Of a DNA stretch of 41,732 bases, positions 1,644-15,599 are shown piece after piece. Under the pieces are notes generated by a model, which did no database searches, had not been told where the DNA came from, and saw only the letters and a program-made list of their open reading frames with translations. The position numbers and the translations under genes were made by a program. The first letter of the stretch is position 1, and the number at the start of each line of letters is the position of its first letter. Source of the stretch: a virus; the IMG/VR virus record IMGVR_UViG_3300017963_000425, positions 1 through 41,732 of that record. One strand, written 5' to 3'.

Positions 1644-2549
1644 TTACCTCCTAAGCCTCGAAAACTTTTCGTCATTGAAATTCTCAAGATAGATATCGTA
1701 ACCCCTATCTCCTCTTTCAACTCGCAATCCTGTATTGGATGTTTCTTCCGTAGTATCTTCTTTCACAGATCCTACAGTTTTATCCACAACAGGAGCTTTT
1801 TCTTCTTCTTTTTTAACTTCTTCTTCAGGAATCTCCTCTTTCGCTGGTTCTTCCTGTTCTTTCGCCAAACCTTTAACAGTCTCGGTTACTTCTTTAAGAT
1901 GTTCTTTCATAGCTTTAAGCTCTTCAGAAAGTTCTTTCTTAAGTTCTTGCATCTTTGTAATCTCTGTATCAATCTTTTCTTCCACTTTAGGTTCAGTTGT
2001 TTTCTCTTCCATTTTAACTGCTACCTCCTTAGTTTTAATTAATTGTTCTTTACTAATACCTGCCACATTCTCATGTATAGGTTTAGAATCTTGAATTGCT
2101 TGTTGTATTGTGGCACCAGGAACGCCAGGAACTACAACAGTGGATAGTTCACAACAAGTCATATCTTTAGCTATCAGGTAATCTGCGTCTTCGCTTTCCT
2201 TCACCAATTTGCCTACAATCGCGCCAATAGAAACATGCTTCACTCTACCATCCTTGACTTGCTCTGATAGTTTACTATTCTTGATCCAGCCTTCATAAGT
2301 CACAGATTCATCAGTATCATTAAAAACTGCGCTCTCTACCACACCAACAGCATTGTCAACTATCGCTTCGTGATCCTTGATAATAGAAACACCAGTCATA
2401 GTATTAGCGAACCTTCTCAGTTCTTCGCCAGTATACATTATACCGTTCCTGCTCACGCCAGACTTAACAGCCACACCATTAACTCTATGCTTTTCTTCAG
2501 AAAAATCAAACAAACCTTCATTCGTTTGTTTTGTCGCTGGGACCTCCAT
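1644..2549 (-). CDS. Prohead maturation protease fused to scaffold
   Basis: 301 residues. Residues 1-150 look like a herpesvirus-assemblin-type (S78/U35-like) prohead protease: His in IIKDHE (about H60), a Ser in KHVSIGA (about S107) and the ELSTVVVPGVPGA strand near residue 140. Residues 180-260 are a highly charged Glu/Lys coiled coil, the usual internal scaffold, and the C-terminus ends in a basic tail (RLRR) that could contact capsid subunits. Such fusions let the scaffold be cleaved away as the head matures. It overlaps the upstream small gene by 32 bases and is followed by decoration and capsid genes. A GGTGAAGGAAG site precedes ATG 2549. Confidence 0.8.
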   Translation of the reverse strand: MEVPATKQTNEGLFDFSEEKHRVNGVAVKSGVSRNGIMYTGEELRRFANTMTGVSIIKDHEAIVDNAVGVVESAVFNDTDESVTYEGWIKNSKLSEQVKDGRVKHVSIGAIVGKLVKESEDADYLIAKDMTCCELSTVVVPGVPGATIQQAIQDSKPIHENVAGISKEQLIKTKEVAVKMEEKTTEPKVEEKIDTEITKMQELKKELSEELKAMKEHLKEVTETVKGLAKEQEEPAKEEIPEEEVKKEEEKAPVVDKTVGSVKEDTTEETSNTGLRVERGDRGYDIYLENFNDEKFSRLRR

Positions 2550-2790
2550 CTTCCTTCACCTCTTCTTTGAAATCAATATTGCCGTTAAACACAAGTTTAA
2601 CATTTTCAGCGACTATGATATGACCGTCCTCATCACGACGGAGATTTTCTTTGCTGTCCCTCCATTGTTTGAAACAAACAGCGTTTCTTTGTTTTTGGTC
2701 AGGAAATTCTGTCTTCATAGTATCATTACCCATACAACGACCAATGAAATCGTTTTGTTTCTCGCCTTTGTTCGGTTTCGGTATTGGCAT
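2518..2790 (-). CDS. Small Cys-containing protein preceding the prohead protease
   Basis: 90 residues. The N-terminal half carries a motif often found at the start of protease-region proteins in tailed viruses: MPIPKPNKGE, then FIGRCM, then an acidic FPDQKQRNAVCFKQW segment. It is known as a short conserved segment but its role is unclear. The C-terminal half is acidic and overlaps the protease gene by 32 bases. A TTGGAGG ribosome site and an archaeal-type TATA box lie upstream, so this gene probably starts a capsid transcript. Confidence 0.65.
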   Translation of the reverse strand: MPIPKPNKGEKQNDFIGRCMGNDTMKTEFPDQKQRNAVCFKQWRDSKENLRRDEDGHIIVAENVKLVFNGNIDFKEEVKEDGGPSDKTNE

Positions 2791-2824
2791 TTTTTATTTC
2801 CTCCAATTATTTTAATAAGTATAG

Positions 2825-2842
2825 CATATATATAAACTTTTG
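2825..2842 (-). promoter_or_regulatory. Archaeal BRE/TATA promoter for the capsid genes
   Basis: On the minus strand the sequence reads CAAAAGTTTATATATATG, a purine-rich BRE followed by a TATA box. A start about 25 bases downstream (near 2806) would leave a leader of about 16 bases with an AGGAGG site before ATG 2790. The core is repeated almost exactly at 5498-5512. It lies in the 52-base gap after the gene ending at 2843. Confidence 0.65.
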
Positions 2843-3163
2843 TTAGTCCAGTATATACTCTTCGTGACTTCTCGTTCGATATACGCTTTTAGGATTGCCT
2901 CTCTGTGTAAGATCATGCAATGGTTTCTCGCCTTCAATCTGTGCTCTCGTGCCAAATAATTTATTATCTCCGCCCTGTCGCATTACTTCTTGCGGATTCG
3001 TTGTTCCACTACCAGTATAATCTTCCCAATCACCAAGAACTAAAATATCTTCTTGGCTTATAGCAGTAGATGTAGAAAAATCATCACATTGGTGTATATA
3101 GTCACTGGTATGTGGTTGCACCACATAGCGTTTATTACATCTTGGGCAAATCTTAATCGTCAT
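2843..3163 (-). CDS. Small zinc-ribbon virion-region protein
   Basis: 106 residues from ATG 3163. The N-terminus has CPRCNKRYVV and a later HQC, a plausible three-Cys/one-His zinc site, followed by a polar region containing TQRGNPKSVYRTRSHE. I do not recognise the family. The start overlaps the stop of the previous gene (ATGACGATTAA), which suggests translational coupling; a longer in-frame version beginning further upstream would overlap that gene deeply and is less likely. Its position between portal and protease genes suggests a head assembly or accessory role, but nothing in the sequence proves it. Confidence 0.6.
   Translation of the reverse strand: MTIKICPRCNKRYVVQPHTSDYIHQCDDFSTSTAISQEDILVLGDWEDYTGSGTTNPQEVMRQGGDNKLFGTRAQIEGEKPLHDLTQRGNPKSVYRTRSHEEYILD
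2850..2859. repeat. AGTATATACT palindrome, copy 1
   Basis: A perfect 10-bp palindrome about 20 bp upstream of the TATA box at 2825-2842, overlapping the last codons of the gene ending at 2843. Identical copies lie at 13563-13572 and 17478-17487, each next to a predicted promoter. It may be a regulator binding site, but here it is also constrained by coding sequence. Confidence 0.35.
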
Positions 3164-3341
3164 TTTTATAACTTTTAATTTTATCGAAGATCCTGTTCTG
3201 CTCATCTTCAAGAGCTTTCTCATACGCTAAGAAACATTCACGACACACAAGCTTGTTCCCAGCCATAAGAACAAAACCAGATTCTTTCTTACCGCAAACT
3301 GAACAATCCGGTCTTTTCTTATATCCTTGCATTTCTATCAT
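3153..3341 (-). CDS. 62-residue double-CxxC zinc-finger protein
   Basis: The product has CSVC near residue 13 and CREC near residue 33, forming a four-Cys treble-clef or zinc-ribbon finger, then an acidic helix. ATG 3341 shares a base with the preceding stop (TAATG), which is why it was preferred to the TTG six bases upstream. It lies in a string of coupled micro-genes between portal and protease. Function is unknown; nucleic-acid or protein binding is possible. Confidence 0.6.
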   Translation of the reverse strand: MIEMQGYKKRPDCSVCGKKESGFVLMAGNKLVCRECFLAYEKALEDEQNRIFDKIKSYKNDD

Positions 3342-3485: not shown

Positions 3486-5408
3486 CTATCTGACATTTAT
3501 TAGAGTGCAACGACATCCTGGATGTGTTGCCTCTGGAATGAAATCTTCACTAATCTCATTAATATTGAATATCCTTCCATTCAAAGAAGAACATAACGGA
3601 CATGTTCGTTCACTCATACTCGAAACGAATTGTAGTTGTTCTACTCCTTCTTCCTTAAAATGAACTATTGCGCCTCTATTGCTCAATCTTACAGTCTCCG
3701 TTCTCGCAATTAATGGTGCTCTTGCTTCACTACCTAATCGTAATATAGGATTACCATCCGCATCAGTAACTAACTCTCCACCCTTCATTCTGTATAAATT
3801 TTGTGGCTTAACTTTCTTTTGAATCTCATTAACAATCCAACCTAATGTTTTATTTCTACGGAAACCTTCAATTAAAACTTCCCTTAACTTATTGACTTGT
3901 GTACCAGAAAATTTACCAGCAGATAACTCGGCAGTAGTGAACCCTTGCAGATTCTCGAAGTTGTCCATCATGGTAACACCTAATACTTTCTCCATATAAC
4001 GCTCATAATTAAAATCTACCCACTCACGAACAGACATCAGCATAGATTCTTGCATTGATGGACTTACATATTCATTAGCAACAGGATTAGTTATGTTCCT
4101 GTTAGATCCTGGCACTTTCGGTTGTTCTTGTTCTAATTCTGCCTTCTTTTCCATTTCAGGGTTCTGAGGAAGCTCAACTTTGTATAATCTTGCCAATTCT
4201 TGCTCCATTGCTTGAATAAAAGCAGGAGACAAAACAAAACTATTTTTCAAGGTCTCATTAATCTTTTCTATTCTTTCATTCGCATCACTCTCATCAGGAC
4301 TGCCCCACTCGAACTCTACGTGAACATCACCCATACCATCCGCTTGTAACACTCGCTTGAATATATCGTTCTCAATTACTTTCTCAACTTCTGCTTGTAA
4401 ACTTGCTATGTGACGCATCCAAGTTTCTTTCTGCATCTTTGCAATACCTTGTGGGATCTTGCCCTTGCCTAAGATAACTTCTGGTGTCTGGAATGCATAA
4501 ATCAACATATCTAAATCATAACGATTCACTGCCTCAAACTTATCTCCAACGCTACCAAAGTCAACAGCCTTGATCTCTGTATATGGACCAGTAACCCATT
4601 CGTGCTTATTATTGAGCCATTCTAATTTCTTTCCGAAAGCTTCCATTTCTGATTGTGGTGGTGCGATACCTTTCTCTCTATCTCCCATGATAACGTGATA
4701 CGGAGAATTAGCTTTCCTACTGACAATGGTATGCATATCTTTATCACAACCTATCATATTGTTTATAGTTGTGACCGAAGATTGTATTATGCCAATGCCA
4801 TAAGCATCATTAGAAACACAATTAATCTTTAAGTGTGCAATTTGGTGTGGCTTAAAAGTGGTGACTTTGCTAATATTAAATTGGTTCATCTTACCAAAGT
4901 ATTGGTTATATTCTTCTATCTTGCCTTTATTATCTCGCTTGACATACATATACTTCGCATCCAATGGTTTCAGACCAGCAGGAGCTTCATTCTTCTTTCC
5001 GCCAATCTCAAGATAACCATTCCCTTTGATAAGAGCTTCTTTGATCCAGGTACGCAAAAGCGTATCAAAGTTCATATCCTGCATGAATTGTTCTATTAGG
5101 GTTTTGGCATTAGGATTATCACATTGCACATAAAAACCGCCTCCAACTATGAAGTCGACGTGTTTATCTACAACGCCAGTAACAAGTCCAAACTTTTTGT
5201 AAAGACCTTCCGTAACTGAGAAATCGAAGGGATGCTGTTCGCCGAGTTCCTTCGGAAATTTGATTTCATTCTGCACTATCTCGCCTTTGAACGAAACCGA
5301 ACTATTCTTGTCAAGCAAGTTTCCTTGTTCCGCATAGACATAGAACTGGTTAGAATTAGATTTAGATTCTATCTTTTCTTTTTTTCTGAACAAAGGAAAT
5401 ATGGCCAT
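3486..5408 (-). CDS. Portal protein fused to MuF-type head morphogenesis domain
   Basis: 640 residues. Residues 20-410 are portal-like: an N-terminal basic segment, a YGIGIIQSSVTTINNM helix, the clip/stem region, and the conserved FQTPEVILGKGK segment that positions the crown helices. Residues 450-640 match the phage Mu gpF domain: an IARTETVRLSNRG helix, CPLC at 603-606 and HPGCRC at 629-634, which probably bind zinc. The portal forms the dodecameric DNA gate; MuF domains are found inside the capsid and in some viruses are ejected. Portal-MuF fusions are known. It follows the terminase genes. The ribosome site is weak, so the start is the least certain part. Confidence 0.88.
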   Translation of the reverse strand: MAIFPLFRKKEKIESKSNSNQFYVYAEQGNLLDKNSSVSFKGEIVQNEIKFPKELGEQHPFDFSVTEGLYKKFGLVTGVVDKHVDFIVGGGFYVQCDNPNAKTLIEQFMQDMNFDTLLRTWIKEALIKGNGYLEIGGKKNEAPAGLKPLDAKYMYVKRDNKGKIEEYNQYFGKMNQFNISKVTTFKPHQIAHLKINCVSNDAYGIGIIQSSVTTINNMIGCDKDMHTIVSRKANSPYHVIMGDREKGIAPPQSEMEAFGKKLEWLNNKHEWVTGPYTEIKAVDFGSVGDKFEAVNRYDLDMLIYAFQTPEVILGKGKIPQGIAKMQKETWMRHIASLQAEVEKVIENDIFKRVLQADGMGDVHVEFEWGSPDESDANERIEKINETLKNSFVLSPAFIQAMEQELARLYKVELPQNPEMEKKAELEQEQPKVPGSNRNITNPVANEYVSPSMQESMLMSVREWVDFNYERYMEKVLGVTMMDNFENLQGFTTAELSAGKFSGTQVNKLREVLIEGFRRNKTLGWIVNEIQKKVKPQNLYRMKGGELVTDADGNPILRLGSEARAPLIARTETVRLSNRGAIVHFKEEGVEQLQFVSSMSERTCPLCSSLNGRIFNINEISEDFIPEATHPGCRCTLINVR

Positions 5409-5497
5409 AAACGTGAAAGAGCAGGTGGACGTGGCTTAGACCGTGTCCGCTTCGTGACATTTCTGGCACGCCTGCATTTTTCTTATAAACAATACTT

Positions 5498-5512
5498 CTA
5501 TATAAACTTTTG
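5498..5512 (-). promoter_or_regulatory. Archaeal BRE/TATA promoter upstream of portal
   Basis: The minus strand reads CAAAAGTTTATATAG, matching the promoter at 2828-2842 over 14 bases. It overlaps the last codons of the terminase nuclease gene. A start near 5478 would give a leader of about 70 bases before the portal gene. A weaker box (TGTTTATAAG) lies about 20 bases further on. Confidence 0.6.
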
Positions 5513-6109
5513 CTAATGAACGCCCCAGTAAATTGCTTTTGTAGTTCCTACCTTGAAACCAGAAGCTGCCAATGCAAGTGCGTCAGGAAAATCGTCATGG
5601 CCTTTTTCACTATGATGGATCTTAAGATTGCCATGCTTGGTCTGACCATCCTTACTACCAACAACTTCATATCTTAAGTCTGCTAATTGATAGATAAGTT
5701 TTTGATGGTCAGGGATATGTAGTCCGCCAGGCTTGTTCCTTGCCCTCTTCTCAAGCAAAGCCCTTAGATTAGAATAAATGTCTTGCTTTAACTTAATGGT
5801 GAATGTTTTAGCGTCAACCTTTCCAGCAAGGGCAGAATCTTCCTGCAATACGTCAGCAACGCCTGCTCCGAGCCCTGTTTCATCTATAATAACTTTCTGG
5901 AACTTGAATCTGCTATTCAAGAAACGAATGCGGTTGATTGCGTCTGTAAGAAGCTTATGTCGTGTTTCTTCAATATATACCACATACAAATCATCATCAT
6001 CATAAGGTTGTTCTATGACTATGTAAACCGAACTATCTTCTCCAAGCCGAGCAAGGTCAACACCAAGAACATATCTCGCCTTAGGATGTATCTCACTAAT
6101 CGGTGGCAT
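5513..6109 (-). CDS. Large terminase, nuclease domain (separate ORF)
   Basis: 198 residues from ATG 6109. It is the RNase H-like headful or cos nuclease of a large terminase: GVDLARLGEDSS (first acid near residue 18), VIIDETGLGAGVADVL (second) and HHSEKGHDDFPDALALA (third) give the metal-binding acids. Normally this follows the ATPase domain in one chain. Here it has its own start, an AGAGG site upstream, and a TAATG junction with the 39-codon ORF before it. It is in the same reading frame as the ATPase ORF at 6221-7033, but at least five in-frame stops separate the two. It cuts concatemeric DNA during packaging. Confidence 0.83.
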   Translation of the reverse strand: MPPISEIHPKARYVLGVDLARLGEDSSVYIVIEQPYDDDDLYVVYIEETRHKLLTDAINRIRFLNSRFKFQKVIIDETGLGAGVADVLQEDSALAGKVDAKTFTIKLKQDIYSNLRALLEKRARNKPGGLHIPDHQKLIYQLADLRYEVVGSKDGQTKHGNLKIHHSEKGHDDFPDALALAASGFKVGTTKAIYWGVH

Positions 6110-6228
6110 TATTCGTCCTCTGGAAAACCAAAACAAAACTTTCTTAATGCTTGATCCCTATCTTTCTTTTCCTGGAACTCACCAATCAAAATACCTTCAA
6201 CATTCCGTATCTTATGTGCTTTATACAT
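6109..6228 (-). CDS. 39-residue ORF lying between the two terminase domains
   Basis: A frame from ATG 6228 to TAA 6109. It overlaps the stop of the ATPase gene by 8 bases and shares one base with the nuclease start (TAATG). The product is charged and contains RNVEGILIGEFQEKKDR and a KFCFGFPEDE ending. It has its own GGGAGG site 7 bases upstream, so it looks like a genuine gene rather than debris. I do not recognise it. It could bridge or regulate the two terminase parts. Its frame differs from that of both neighbours. Confidence 0.55.
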   Translation of the reverse strand: MYKAHKIRNVEGILIGEFQEKKDRDQALRKFCFGFPEDE

Positions 6229-7033
6229 AAACTGCCTCCCTCGGTATCATTGGATAATCATCAATACAAGCACTAATTAATTCTTGTGTGAAATAACAAT
6301 CAATGTCTTCAATGAACTCACCGAATATCTCTGTCCGAACATAAACATGATCCTTGCCATAATCATCTACTTCTTTCTGCACTTCTTCTTTGCTAATGTA
6401 AGGATTATCGAATGTTGTAAAGTGAAAGCTTTCGTAACCATCAACACCTTTCCTGCCACGCTGGAAGTCATTATAGAAATTATTTTTTCCCCAAGGAGTA
6501 GAAGTCTGCCATATTGGTGCACCCTTATCAAAGGCCATTGGTCGTATCGCTTGCAATGCAGTCTCTTTCAGGAAACCACTCTCATCCCAGAACATTCTAT
6601 CATATGCCTCGCCACGCAAGGAATCTGGATTATCGCCAGAACCGAACTCTACAGAACAACCATTGATCCATTCAATCCTTGGATGCGGATGTTCAGTAAA
6701 CTTCTTAAGATCATTCATTGCAGGAACTGGTGCATTCCTTAGAATTTCTAATATCTTGTTATATACTATCCTGCTCTGTTTGTATGTTGGTGCTACAACG
6801 AATTGTCGTGGATAGAACTTGAAGGTGGCACCCCTTATTATCTCTCCAGCAATCATGTGTGTCTTCCCAGTTCTTCTGCCACAACATATGACTTTATGCT
6901 TAGAAATAGACTTAAGAATGCCTTGTTGTTTCTTGTGCGGTTCAATGCCAAGATAACCTACTTGGAAAAGGACAGGATCTTTCAACTCTTTCTCGAACTG
7001 TTTCGCATCAATTTTATTTTTCTCAATCGCCAT
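6221..7033 (-). CDS. Large terminase, ATPase domain (separate ORF)
   Basis: 270 residues. Walker A is CGRRTGKT (residues 51-58), Walker B is RMFWDE (residues 146-151) and the coupling motif is TSTPWG (177-182), all typical of the DNA-packaging motor. The protein stops after the ATPase lobe at IPREAVYV, where other large terminases (usually 400-550 residues in one chain) run on into the nuclease domain; the nuclease is encoded next, at 5513-6109. A GTAGAAG context precedes ATG 7033, which overlaps the previous gene's stop. Together with the nuclease it should package DNA through the portal. Confidence 0.85.
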   Translation of the reverse strand: MAIEKNKIDAKQFEKELKDPVLFQVGYLGIEPHKKQQGILKSISKHKVICCGRRTGKTHMIAGEIIRGATFKFYPRQFVVAPTYKQSRIVYNKILEILRNAPVPAMNDLKKFTEHPHPRIEWINGCSVEFGSGDNPDSLRGEAYDRMFWDESGFLKETALQAIRPMAFDKGAPIWQTSTPWGKNNFYNDFQRGRKGVDGYESFHFTTFDNPYISKEEVQKEVDDYGKDHVYVRTEIFGEFIEDIDCYFTQELISACIDDYPMIPREAVYV

Positions 7034-7151
7034 CTTCTACAAATGCTCTTGGTGTTTTATTACAAAAATGTAAAAATCCTTTAATTTCTTTGCCACAGCA
7101 ATCACAACAAGATATAATTTTTCCATCAATTAACTTATTAATTATCGCCAT
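7023..7151 (-). CDS. 42-residue Cys-rich micro-protein
   Basis: Starts at ATG 7151 inside the end of the previous gene and ends inside the start of the terminase ATPase gene. It contains CCDCCGKEI and a later FC, giving a likely zinc-binding cluster. It was preferred to the longer in-frame version because of a GGGGCTGAAG site at the correct distance. Function is unknown. It is one of three consecutive tiny Cys-rich genes. Confidence 0.5.
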   Translation of the reverse strand: MAIINKLIDGKIISCCDCCGKEIKGFLHFCNKTPRAFVEDGD

Positions 7152-7317
7152 CTTCAGCCCCCATCCATTTTTCCTTACAGTTTCTACAAATATATCCTCT
7201 AATATTTCTAGGATTTCCTTTTTCACAAATTGAATAACATAATCTATCTTTACCACAAACACCACAATCTTTCTTAAAATACTTTTTATTATATTTTAAT
7301 TTAAATTCAGTTTCCAT
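7138..7317 (-). CDS. 59-residue zinc-ribbon protein
   Basis: Begins at ATG 7317 after a GGAAGGTGG site. CGVC near residue 18 and CRNC near residue 46 form a classic two-knuckle zinc ribbon, with an additional Cys pair between (CYSIC). It overlaps both neighbours by about a dozen bases. Such small ribbons often resemble HNH or transcription-factor fingers, but no catalytic residues are visible. No function can be assigned. Confidence 0.55.
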   Translation of the reverse strand: METEFKLKYNKKYFKKDCGVCGKDRLCYSICEKGNPRNIRGYICRNCKEKWMGAEDGDN

Positions 7318-7426
7318 TCCGACCACCTTCCTTAAAATTATGTTTGAATACGAAGTCCATATAACATTCAAAACAAATTACCTTTCCAAGCTTAGTCTTC
7401 TTACAAAGTTCACATCTTTCAGCCAT
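7307..7426 (-). CDS. 39-residue zinc-knuckle protein
   Basis: A frame from ATG 7426 to TGA 7307, too short for routine gene finding. It has CELC at residues 5-8 and CFEC at 18-21, a compact zinc knuckle, and a perfect GGAGGCTGAAG leader identical to that of the gene at 7799. Stop and start overlap neighbours on both sides. Probably a genuine small zinc protein; role unknown. Confidence 0.5.
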   Translation of the reverse strand: MAERCELCKKTKLGKVICFECYMDFVFKHNFKEGGRNGN

Positions 7427-7799
7427 CTTCAGCCTCCTTCTTTTTTTTATGATATGCTCTCATATATGCTTTTATCTTATCCTTGTTTGCTTCTCTATAT
7501 GCTTTCTTCTGTGCTTTTATCTTATCTTTATTAGCTTCATAGTATGCTTTCTTCTGTGCTTTTATCTTATCTTTATTAGCTTCTCGATATGCTTTTATCT
7601 TATCCTTGTTTGCTTCTCTATATGCTTTATTATGTGCTTTTATCATATCCCTGTTTGCTTCTTTCCATGCTTTTATCTTATCCTTGTTTGCTTCATTATA
7701 TGCTTTTGACTTATGTTTTTTATTAAGAGGAGAATCTAATGGTTCTATGTCATCATAAAAGTCAGACCAACCCAATTCTATCAATTCTTTCTCAGACAT
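7419..7799 (-). CDS. Lys-rich tandem-repeat helical protein
   Basis: 126 residues. After a 30-residue acidic head (MSEKELIELGWSDFYDD), the rest is built from about seven copies of an 11-13 residue unit of the form AYREANKDKIKAQKK, strongly helical and basic. Related Lys/Asn/Glu repeats occur in many mobile elements, often near HNH nucleases, and may coat or bind nucleic acid; that role is not proven. A GGAGGCTGAAG leader precedes ATG 7799. The repeat copies are nearly identical at DNA level, so copy number may vary. It lies between terminase genes and a structured non-coding region. Confidence 0.65.
   Translation of the reverse strand: MSEKELIELGWSDFYDDIEPLDSPLNKKHKSKAYNEANKDKIKAWKEANRDMIKAHNKAYREANKDKIKAYREANKDKIKAQKKAYYEANKDKIKAQKKAYREANKDKIKAYMRAYHKKKKEAEDG
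7449..7719 (-). repeat. Coding tandem repeats of 30-39 bp
   Basis: Repeated units whose plus-strand form contains ATGCTTTTATCTTATC and TTTGCTTC, encoding the KDKIKA and EANK parts of the helical protein at 7419-7799. Spacings of about 30 and 39 bases alternate. This is a coding repeat, not a CRISPR array. Confidence 0.7.
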
Positions 7800-13686: not shown

Positions 13687-14775
13687 ATGGCAAATAAAGC
13701 AATGAAAAATATTAAAATAGGCATTGAGGTCGAATGTGTTATTAATGCCGATAAAGTGAGCGTGAATGCTGGTGCTTACCATAGCGGAGTGCGACAGCCA
13801 GGCTTACCTTTATGGAAGGTTGAGCGTGATGGCAGTCTGCGGAGCAATGGCGAGTTCGAGAATGCGAGGACTTGCGAGTTCGTGAGCAATGTTATTAGAA
13901 GCAAGAATGGCTATAATAAGGCCTTAAAAAAATTGCAGGAATTTCTGTCTGCTGGAGATAGCTACGACATGTGCGAAGTTGTTGCATTTAATAATAGTTG
14001 TGGTAGCCATGTGCATTTTTCCATTAAAGACTTTAACTTTAAGGAGAATGTTGTTTTTAAAAAGTATAGGGGCATTAGAAAACACTTTTTAAAGCGAATT
14101 GATAAATCTAAAGTTTTAAGCCAGGAAACAAAAGAAGCTATTAAAAAGCAATATGTCAGAAACTACGCTAAACGGTTGACAAGAGCGAGGATGGAAAGAA
14201 GCGTAAGGCATACCGAATTTAATTTCTCGAGTGAGGACATTGGCACAGGCCTTGAATGGCGAAGCATAAACTTAAACAATGTGCAAGACTGGGAAGAATT
14301 CCATGAAGTGTTCAAAATAATTTATGAATGCCTTGAATTTTTATACAAGCTTTCAACCAAATACACGAGCACATATAACCAGCGTATCCCTGACGTGCAT
14401 GGCGACAGGAACAATGGTTATGCATTAAAGTTTAAGGTTGCATACGACAAGAAGAAAGATGAAAGTATTGTTTTAACCTTGACAGCAACCGACAAACTGC
14501 GCAACATATTAAAGCGTGCAATAATCGAAGAAACGACAAGGTTCACAATATTGGGCAACAAAAAATATACCAGATATAAAGTAAAGCGTTCCAGGGTTGA
14601 CGGAGCGACTGGCGTTTATTTTTGGGAGATGTTGTTCGCCAAAAGATTGGTGGACAATGGCACCTTTGAAGTTGTGCTACCGAACACAGCATATATTAAT
14701 AGGATGATGGACAACCTAAAAACAGCAAGCAAAAGGTTAATCTATGCTGAATATATAGATAGCTTGGGTGACTAA
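13687..14775 (+). CDS. Amidoligase (glutamine-synthetase-like COOH-NH2 ligase)
   Basis: 362 residues. The pattern fits the amidoligase family of the glutamine-synthetase-like fold: GIEVECV near the start, EFVS around 64, CGSHVHFSI (105-113) with two His, and LEWRSIN near residue 197 for ATP/metal binding. These enzymes join a carboxylate to an amine using ATP; relatives in viruses and mobile elements have been predicted to modify peptides or cell-wall material. The next gene is a class II glutamine amidotransferase three bases away, a pairing known for this family, which would supply ammonia. Substrate unknown. Confidence 0.75.
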   Translation: MANKAMKNIKIGIEVECVINADKVSVNAGAYHSGVRQPGLPLWKVERDGSLRSNGEFENARTCEFVSNVIRSKNGYNKALKKLQEFLSAGDSYDMCEVVAFNNSCGSHVHFSIKDFNFKENVVFKKYRGIRKHFLKRIDKSKVLSQETKEAIKKQYVRNYAKRLTRARMERSVRHTEFNFSSEDIGTGLEWRSINLNNVQDWEEFHEVFKIIYECLEFLYKLSTKYTSTYNQRIPDVHGDRNNGYALKFKVAYDKKKDESIVLTLTATDKLRNILKRAIIEETTRFTILGNKKYTRYKVKRSRVDGATGVYFWEMLFAKRLVDNGTFEVVLPNTAYINRMMDNLKTASKRLIYAEYIDSLGD

Positions 14776-14777
14776 AA

Positions 14778-15599
14778 ATGTGCAACATAAACATTTTAAT
14801 TAAGGACAAAAAGGATAGCTGGAACGTCGCCAGTTTCATGATGGCAGTGACAGCTTCCAGCTATTCTCGTAACCCTGACGGAGAAGGGCTATTTTGTGAT
14901 AGCGACAGCAAGAGTTTGTTTATTAAACAGAACCAGAAGATTAACTTGCTAAATTATGGCAAATTGTTCAAGGATGGTAAGTTTATAATAACACACCAGC
15001 GACTCAGCACAAGCGGATTCAACCAAAGATGGCACCATCCTTTTGTGAATAAAGACTTTGTATTCGTGCATAATGGCATAATAAATCGTTTCCTTGGAAA
15101 GAAAGGTAGCGATTCATATGGTTTTTTTATGGCGTTCACTGCATTATTCAACAAATTGCAGACTGGCACAAGGGAAGAGCGTATTGTGCAGAGCATTAAG
15201 CACTTATTGGATGGTCTTGATGACGGCAGTTATAGCATTGCCATTTATGACAGAAGGACGGAGAAATTATACTATTGCAAGAACAGCATGACAAATATTC
15301 ACTTTTTTAGATTTGCCAGGAAGTTGTACATAACAACCCTGCATAGTAATTCAGAATTTATCCCAATGTTAAGCAAGCAACACACAGAACTTGACATTAA
15401 GGACTACACTATTTACAGAGCAAACAAGAAACAAGGGGAACCAGTTTCAGTTTATAGCATTGCTAACATAAAAGAACCAGAACCACCAAAGGAGACAGCA
15501 AAGGAAGAGACAACAAAGCAAAAAAAGAAGACCAAAGACGAAGTGCAATGCTATGACTATAACCCTTTCGAGAAATATTCGTGTCAAGAAACATATTAA
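14778..15599 (+). CDS. Class II glutamine amidotransferase
   Basis: 273 residues. The second residue is Cys (MCNIN), the N-terminal nucleophile once Met is removed. Further family residues are HQRLSTSG (Arg75), FVFVHNGII (Asn99-Gly100) and SDSYGF (Asp near 108). It hydrolyses glutamine to release ammonia, presumably for the amidoligase encoded immediately upstream. Residues 1-215 form the Ntn-hydrolase fold; the last 55 are a charged linker rich in Glu and Lys. There is no synthetase domain of its own, which supports partnership with the neighbour. The start is fixed by the need for Cys at position 2. Confidence 0.83.
   Translation: MCNINILIKDKKDSWNVASFMMAVTASSYSRNPDGEGLFCDSDSKSLFIKQNQKINLLNYGKLFKDGKFIITHQRLSTSGFNQRWHHPFVNKDFVFVHNGIINRFLGKKGSDSYGFFMAFTALFNKLQTGTREERIVQSIKHLLDGLDDGSYSIAIYDRRTEKLYYCKNSMTNIHFFRFARKLYITTLHSNSEFIPMLSKQHTELDIKDYTIYRANKKQGEPVSVYSIANIKEPEPPKETAKEETTKQKKKTKDEVQCYDYNPFEKYSCQETY

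Follow-up and report, generated by a model that had tools for sequence, protein, structure and literature searches.

The window analysed here is a 41,732-nucleotide stretch of viral DNA (IMG/VR record IMGVR_UViG_3300017963_000425, positions 1 to 41,732), in which the large terminase is laid out as two genes with a small ORF between them. In the order in which they are read, the features of the locus are the following.

6221..7033, minus strand: large terminase ATPase chain, 270 aa, with Walker A RRTGKT and Walker B MFWDE
6224..6304, minus strand: C-terminal tail of the ATPase chain (27 residues, IDCYF...VYV) beyond the lobe boundary, mapped to residue 233 of the fused relative L129
6235..6239, minus strand: ribosome site GGAGG of the 39-codon ORF
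6109..6228, minus strand: 39-codon junction ORF, probably translated, its product without known relatives
6117..6120, minus strand: ribosome site GAGG of the nuclease gene, within the 39-codon ORF
5513..6109, minus strand: large terminase nuclease chain, 198 aa from the ATG at 6109, RNase H-type, with the acidic motifs GVD, IIDETG and HDD kept
3486..5408, minus strand: portal fused to a Mu gpF-like domain (Phage_portal 5.1e-14, Phage_Mu_F 5.4e-12), directly downstream of the nuclease

The 39-codon ORF overlaps the end of the ATPase gene by 8 bases, ATGTATAA, and is joined to the nuclease gene by TAATG, its TAA lying at 6111-6109 and the nuclease ATG at 6109. Ribosome-site spacing is 6 bases for the small ORF and 7 bases for the nuclease. 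The nuclease ORF is in the ATPase frame and begins 111 bases past the ATPase stop, and read-through from one to the other would cross five in-frame stops, the ATPase's own among them. With these stops and the 39-codon ORF between them, the two lobes are not in one polypeptide in the window. The first-pass annotation of this DNA had described separate same-frame ORFs, a gap with at least five stops, the 8-base overlap and the TAATG, and all of these are confirmed. It had also assigned a ribosome site to each of the three genes, which holds for the 39-codon ORF and the nuclease but not for the ATPase, where no ribosome site was seen and the start instead overlaps the stop of an upstream ORF (7023-7265). 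Its statement that the ATPase ORF stops after the ATPase lobe was inexact, as the chain extends about 27 residues past the lobe. Upstream of the ATPase, the region 7023-7799 holds a series of small ORFs in which cysteines occur in pairs, along with a protein built of EANKDKIKA repeats; several of these ORFs start with a repeated GGAGGCTGAAGATG-like leader.

Together the two chains hold the parts expected of a large terminase: an N-terminal ATPase lobe with Walker A, Walker B and the catalytic Glu, and an RNase H-type nuclease lobe with its acidic active site. The ATPase chain matches Terminase_6N (1.3e-08), phrog_2 (1.4e-34) and the P74-26 ATPase domain, and its AF2 model (pLDDT 89.0) matches the P74-26 ATPase structure 4zni with a Z of 25.8. 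The nuclease chain matches phrog_2 (2.7e-08) and, with E values of about 1e-06 to 3e-06, the nucleases of P74-26/G20c (5tge/5m1f), while Terminase_6C scores 16.6 bits, below its cut-off of 22.6. Every catalytic residue examined in the window is kept.

Over 6310 bases, junction included, the window is 100% identical to a second contig, IMGVR_UViG_3300017971_004036, and hence the split is not a one-off sequencing error. The ATPase/nuclease split of the window's large terminase is real. A search with the terminase of the relative L003 returned 28 loci, 26 of which (L003, L005-L027, L029 and L030, the last cut at a contig edge) carry a single ORF that runs through the linker and encodes both lobes; L028, which is the window's own contig, and the distant locus L031 make up the rest. 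In these fused relatives only a short linker separates the ELIxxC segment from the first nuclease strand, which indicates that the window gained sequence there. Among annotated isolates, a single terminase gene, 1224 to 1269 bases long, is annotated in each of the Meiothermus MMP17, Rhizobium X66 and Vibrio 1.157.O regions. Relatives with one intact chain and no 39-codon ORF had been named beforehand as grounds against a genuine split; such relatives do exist, but what they show is that the split is derived, and they are no evidence of an artefact.

To find further split members, a scan with a nuclease alignment was combined with a check of every nuclease ORF. Among the matches listed, and after duplicates were merged (126 rows to 101), this gave 101 distinct nucleases, of which 86 are fused, 13 are split and 2 (L004 and L174, subsequently dropped) are without an ATPase. 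The break falls at the same linker in 12 of the 99 distinct rows with both halves, the window included, a proportion among the matches listed that is not a frequency in nature because the scan took the best 80 of 140 relatives and its alignment held three split members. The thirteenth split row, L149, is broken inside the ATPase and hence falls outside the linker count, although it was kept as split in the trees and residue counts; its terminase (L149:2688-3991) is adjoined by the fused relatives L142 and L150. A possible further break is seen in a Verrucomicrobia contig (L114:4765-5679), where a 305 aa ATPase ORF lies away from the contig edge with no nuclease match; its relatives L113 and L115 are fused.

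Catalytic residues are kept across the split rows. The Walker A Lys and Walker B Glu are present in 13/13, and in the nuclease Asp1 is present in 11/13, Asp2 in 13/13 and HDD in 13/13, whereas a further aspartate (PDAL) is found in only 8/13 (L124 was left out of these counts, and the ATPase part also excludes rows with an ATPase of 180 residues or fewer). The two Asp1 exceptions, L125 and L153, both have a damaged nuclease 5' end. In L125 (4755-5312), as in L126, the split nuclease shifts frame near its start, the 5' end being damaged or unusually read. In L153 (4343-5060) the 3' end of an HNH gene reads into the first nuclease strand (YILGADLAR) and then stops; the separate nuclease ORF starts after the HNH gene and is without the first aspartate.

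What sits at the junction differs from one split relative to the next. The halves overlap by 4 bases with no cargo in L130 and L135 and by 1 base with no cargo in L165, and they lie 1 base apart in L157 and 73 bases apart in L131. A 71-codon ORF occupies the junction of L148, compared with 39 codons in the window; an HNH/NUMOD3 gene that of L033; an HNH gene that of L153; and a metallophosphoesterase gene that of L190. L158 has a metallophosphoesterase and three ORFs (L159 and L160 share its nuclease domain), while L125, and also L126, has a metallophosphoesterase together with a DUF559-type endonuclease (weak match). In L125, L158 and L190, which belong to one split clade, the metallophosphoesterase between ATPase and nuclease has a cysteine-rich N-terminus. 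Mobile or accessory genes, among them HNH homing endonucleases, metallophosphoesterases and small ORFs, are thus housed at this junction. The clearest sign that endonucleases come and go there is the pair L135/L153, whose nucleases are 93% identical and in which the HNH gene is present only in L153, exactly at the stop/start overlap.

The distribution of the split was then compared with maximum-likelihood trees of both lobes. On the nuclease tree (99 rows) the split label requires 6 changes, at least 5 of them forced by well-supported branches, and on the ATPase tree (95 rows, without those having an ATPase of 180 residues or fewer) it requires 8, at least 6 of them so forced, gain and loss of the split not being told apart in these counts. 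Shuffled labels gave means of 12.4 (nuclease) and 12.5 (ATPase), with 0/500 as low as observed. One clade in which all members are split (L125, L158, L190, L157 and L165) is supported in both trees, and its pairwise identities, computed with the same exclusion and without L124, are 38-61% for the nuclease and 39-56% for the ATPase; identities this low within an all-split clade point to an old split that has been kept. The window itself falls near L129 (fused) and L130 and L131 (split), with low support. For the split pair L135/L153, which share the ATPase stop, nuclease dN/dS is 0.05 (from MGQD on), and the ATPase gives a pN of 0.084 versus a saturated pS of 0.754. By these substitution patterns, the pair is under strong purifying selection. 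Because the active sites are kept, a clade stays split at 38-61% identity and a split pair is under purifying selection, we conclude that the two-chain motor is very probably functional. The first-pass annotation had preferred a two-subunit motor to a sequencing error, and this preference is supported by the identical second contig, the 11 further distinct linker-split relatives, the kept active sites and the purifying selection.

In several fused relatives (L156, L163, L134, L132, L133 and L140), the ATPase and nuclease halves come from different clades, which suggests that lobes have been swapped at the linker. The nuclease of L156 is 58-69% identical to those of the rows compared, its ATPase 23-29%, and L134 versus L003 gives 60% for the nuclease and 25% for the ATPase. 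With lobes from different clades in fused chains, recombination would also take place at the linker, in keeping with visits by endonucleases, although the one need not have caused the other.

To place the break relative to the lobes, an AF2 model of the fused L129 (mean pLDDT 92.3) was compared with solved structures by alignment. Where only the ATPase lobe had been crystallised, most structures end at L129 residue 230-232 (4znk extends to 237), while structures of a lone nuclease lobe begin at residue 230-236. All 12 of the 12 linker-split ATPases run beyond residue 233, by 23-33 residues and by exactly 23 in eight of them; hence the hinge stays on the ATPase chain. In the fused relatives, the stretch that corresponds to this tail forms the beginning of the nuclease lobe structure. 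In fused L129 its region is confidently modelled (blocks 241-260 at pLDDT 96), whereas the last three blocks of the lone window ATPase have pLDDT 68, 66 and 52. From these models we infer that the ATPase tail is by structure a part of the nuclease lobe and would dock in trans on the separate nuclease. Counting against docking, conservation within the five-member split clade is lower in the tail than in the ATPase body (mean identity 33% versus 51%; invariant columns 4/23 versus 63/221). Its hydrophobic pattern is nevertheless kept, as 10/23 tail columns are all-hydrophobic versus 64/221 in the body.

The reading that we prefer, with a probability of roughly two in three, is that the large terminase is made as two polypeptides derived from a normally single-chain motor, that the halves reassemble, and that the 39-residue product is accessory. 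Mobile genes, homing endonucleases above all, would have inserted at the linker and cut the terminase gene in pieces, with a stop/start overlap or new ribosome sites keeping both halves translated. Later loss or replacement of the cargo may account for empty junctions and for small ORFs like the one seen here. The two chains would reassemble at the portal, the ATPase carrying the hinge and the first 23-33 nuclease-lobe residues as a tail whose docking on the nuclease could replace the covalent link. For the window's own split, an insertion origin is proposed by analogy, because the 39-codon ORF carries no endonuclease trace. Compared with five endonuclease proteins, this ORF gave scores reached by 210-490 of 500 shuffles. 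Likewise, the junction DNA compared with four other junctions gave scores reached by 18-299 of 300 shuffles.

How much of a role the 39-residue product has in the motor depends on whether it is made and whether it recurs. The codon score of the ORF is 0.143, against 0.109 ± 0.081 for the genome's in-frame windows (n=224) and -0.164 ± 0.110 for out-of-frame windows, only 4/1120 of which score as high. Furthermore, only 0.075% of 20,000 random gaps with the same dinucleotide make-up contain a 39-codon ATG ORF with a 5-base ribosome site. In all likelihood, judging from these sequence measures, the ORF is translated, and its coupling on both sides would deliver the three products in step. A coding-like ORF with a strong ribosome site, made in step with both halves, is what one would expect if the 39-residue protein were a necessary third subunit bridging them. 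We consider this unlikely, as no relative of the product was found in Pfam (best 0.2), PHROGs, a phage tblastn (best E 9) or the fetched loci (best E 0.49, the window's own contig excepted), and the other split relatives carry either no gene or unrelated genes at this position. The small extra motor component proposed in the first-pass annotation is thus not supported, nor did the search that it suggested beside other split terminases bring up a relative. The product looks like one of several junction cargoes and not like a conserved motor part. Accessory cargo, or a gene that has replaced another, is the most likely reading, although the product may possibly bridge the two halves.

A single chain could also be restored if the gap were removed after transcription, as an intron or an archaeal bulge-helix-bulge intron, or were bypassed by the ribosome. 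The two halves share a frame, an imperfect repeat of 11 bases (AATGATACCGA / AATGCCACCGA) encloses a stretch of 141 bases, a length divisible by three, and group I introns are known in terL (PMC12363816, PMC11878797). However, the window has no Rfam match up to E 1 at 5000-7500, the 11 further split loci have none at gathering scores, and the folding of 231 nt is unremarkable (z -1.07). In addition, the ORF that fills the gap is coding-like and has a ribosome site to itself, and junctions of -4, -1 or +1 bases in some relatives are too short for any intron, which makes this reading very improbable. Intron families were absent up to E 1 in 6 of the 11 split loci, and at looser Rfam limits a candidate structured RNA at the junction came down to two unrelated weak matches (L153 and L190). 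An intein was likewise rejected, as no open frame runs through the insert. Removal of an intron or intein, which had been named as evidence that would overturn a split motor, accordingly has no support from the five stops or the Rfam searches.

Equally improbable is decay or artefact, that is, a terminase broken in a defective or mis-assembled genome. The window is a metagenome contig, and two other split relatives (L125 and L153) have damaged nuclease starts, but the identical second contig, the full set of catalytic residues, the clean start, ribosome site and codon use, the old split clade and the purifying selection on a split pair all argue against it. Least probable of all are two programmed frameshifts that would join ATPase, 39 residues and nuclease in one chain with an extended linker: the three ORFs do overlap or touch, but two shifts are needed, the first confined to about 24 bases without a slippery heptamer, and the device is impossible for relatives with whole genes between the halves.

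The two-chain reading can be set beside several known systems. According to reviews, T4 gp17 split at the linker kept both activities and lost translocation, and the hinge is described as essential (PMC3012670, PMC9958956). This result counts against a working two-chain motor and is the basis of models in which the hinge lets the ATPase pull on the nuclease lobe. The T4 construct resembles the natural split in having ATPase and nuclease as two polypeptides, each of them active in T4. The T4 lobe boundary corresponds to L129 residue 230-234, as judged from the single-lobe crystals, whereas the natural breaks lie 23-33 residues further on, which indicates that they spare the hinge.

In Aeromonas phage Aeh1, NrdA is split by a free-standing HNH endonuclease, mobE, and the pieces are reported to reassemble into a functional enzyme; Aeromonas phage 25 has split DNA polymerase genes (PMC2988022, PMC3653736). 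The likeness to Aeh1 NrdA lies in an essential enzyme split by gene insertion without an intron, with an endonuclease at the junction in some relatives here, whereas here it is a packaging motor, known from sequence, with several kinds of cargo or none at one linker. The terminase gene is intact in relatives and cut in two without an intron match here; an endonuclease gene is absent from the window's junction and present in those of L033 and L153, and in L125 as a DUF559-type gene (weak). By its gene arrangement, the two-chain terminase is a further case of the known 'genes in pieces'. Large terminase genes interrupted by group I introns, with endonucleases nearby, differ in that splicing was seen there and restored the coding region, while the junctions examined here gave no intron match and are in some cases too short to contain one. 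Cyanophage Mic1 offers another interrupted TerL, carrying inteins (PMC7156551), but these are translated in frame and spliced as protein, whereas here the ORFs stop and restart. The closest isolated relative of the window nuclease (40.7% identity) is the TerL of Halogranum tailed virus 1 (KC292026, gene 5), which also lies shortly before a portal-MuF gene, there with one small gene between, but which is one fused chain (CDS 1933-3246). The open-access literature yielded no description of a large terminase made as two chains without splicing, which is weak evidence of absence.

The repeated break at the same place in relatives suggests that a motor part long held to need a single chain can work as two. 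A more far-reaching version, to which we give somewhat less than even odds, is that tailed viruses of a whole lineage allied to Halogranum tailed virus 1 have repeatedly gone over to a two-chain packaging motor, the hinge remaining with the ATPase and a tail of about 23 residues plugging into the nuclease in trans. Covalent continuity, judged essential from work on T4, would then be dispensable, and the junction would be a landing site of homing endonucleases, which would explain the lobe exchange. A break beyond the hinge would offer a natural, reconstitutable two-part motor for testing what the hinge must transmit, and a separate nuclease could be omitted or swapped without touching the ATPase. 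An essential motor gene can also carry mobile genes at such a junction for long periods. In annotation, a short 'ATPase-only' terminase should not automatically be taken for a broken gene.

Elsewhere, a scan of the genome gave 16 distant matches (24-32% identity), including a Diapherotrites archaeon, Chloroflexota, Verrucomicrobia and other bacteria, from which we make no host claim. An amidoligase-like gene lies beside a glutamine amidotransferase-like gene at 13687-15599, followed, up to 28 kb, by radical SAM genes and, as judged by eye, glycosyltransferase-like genes.
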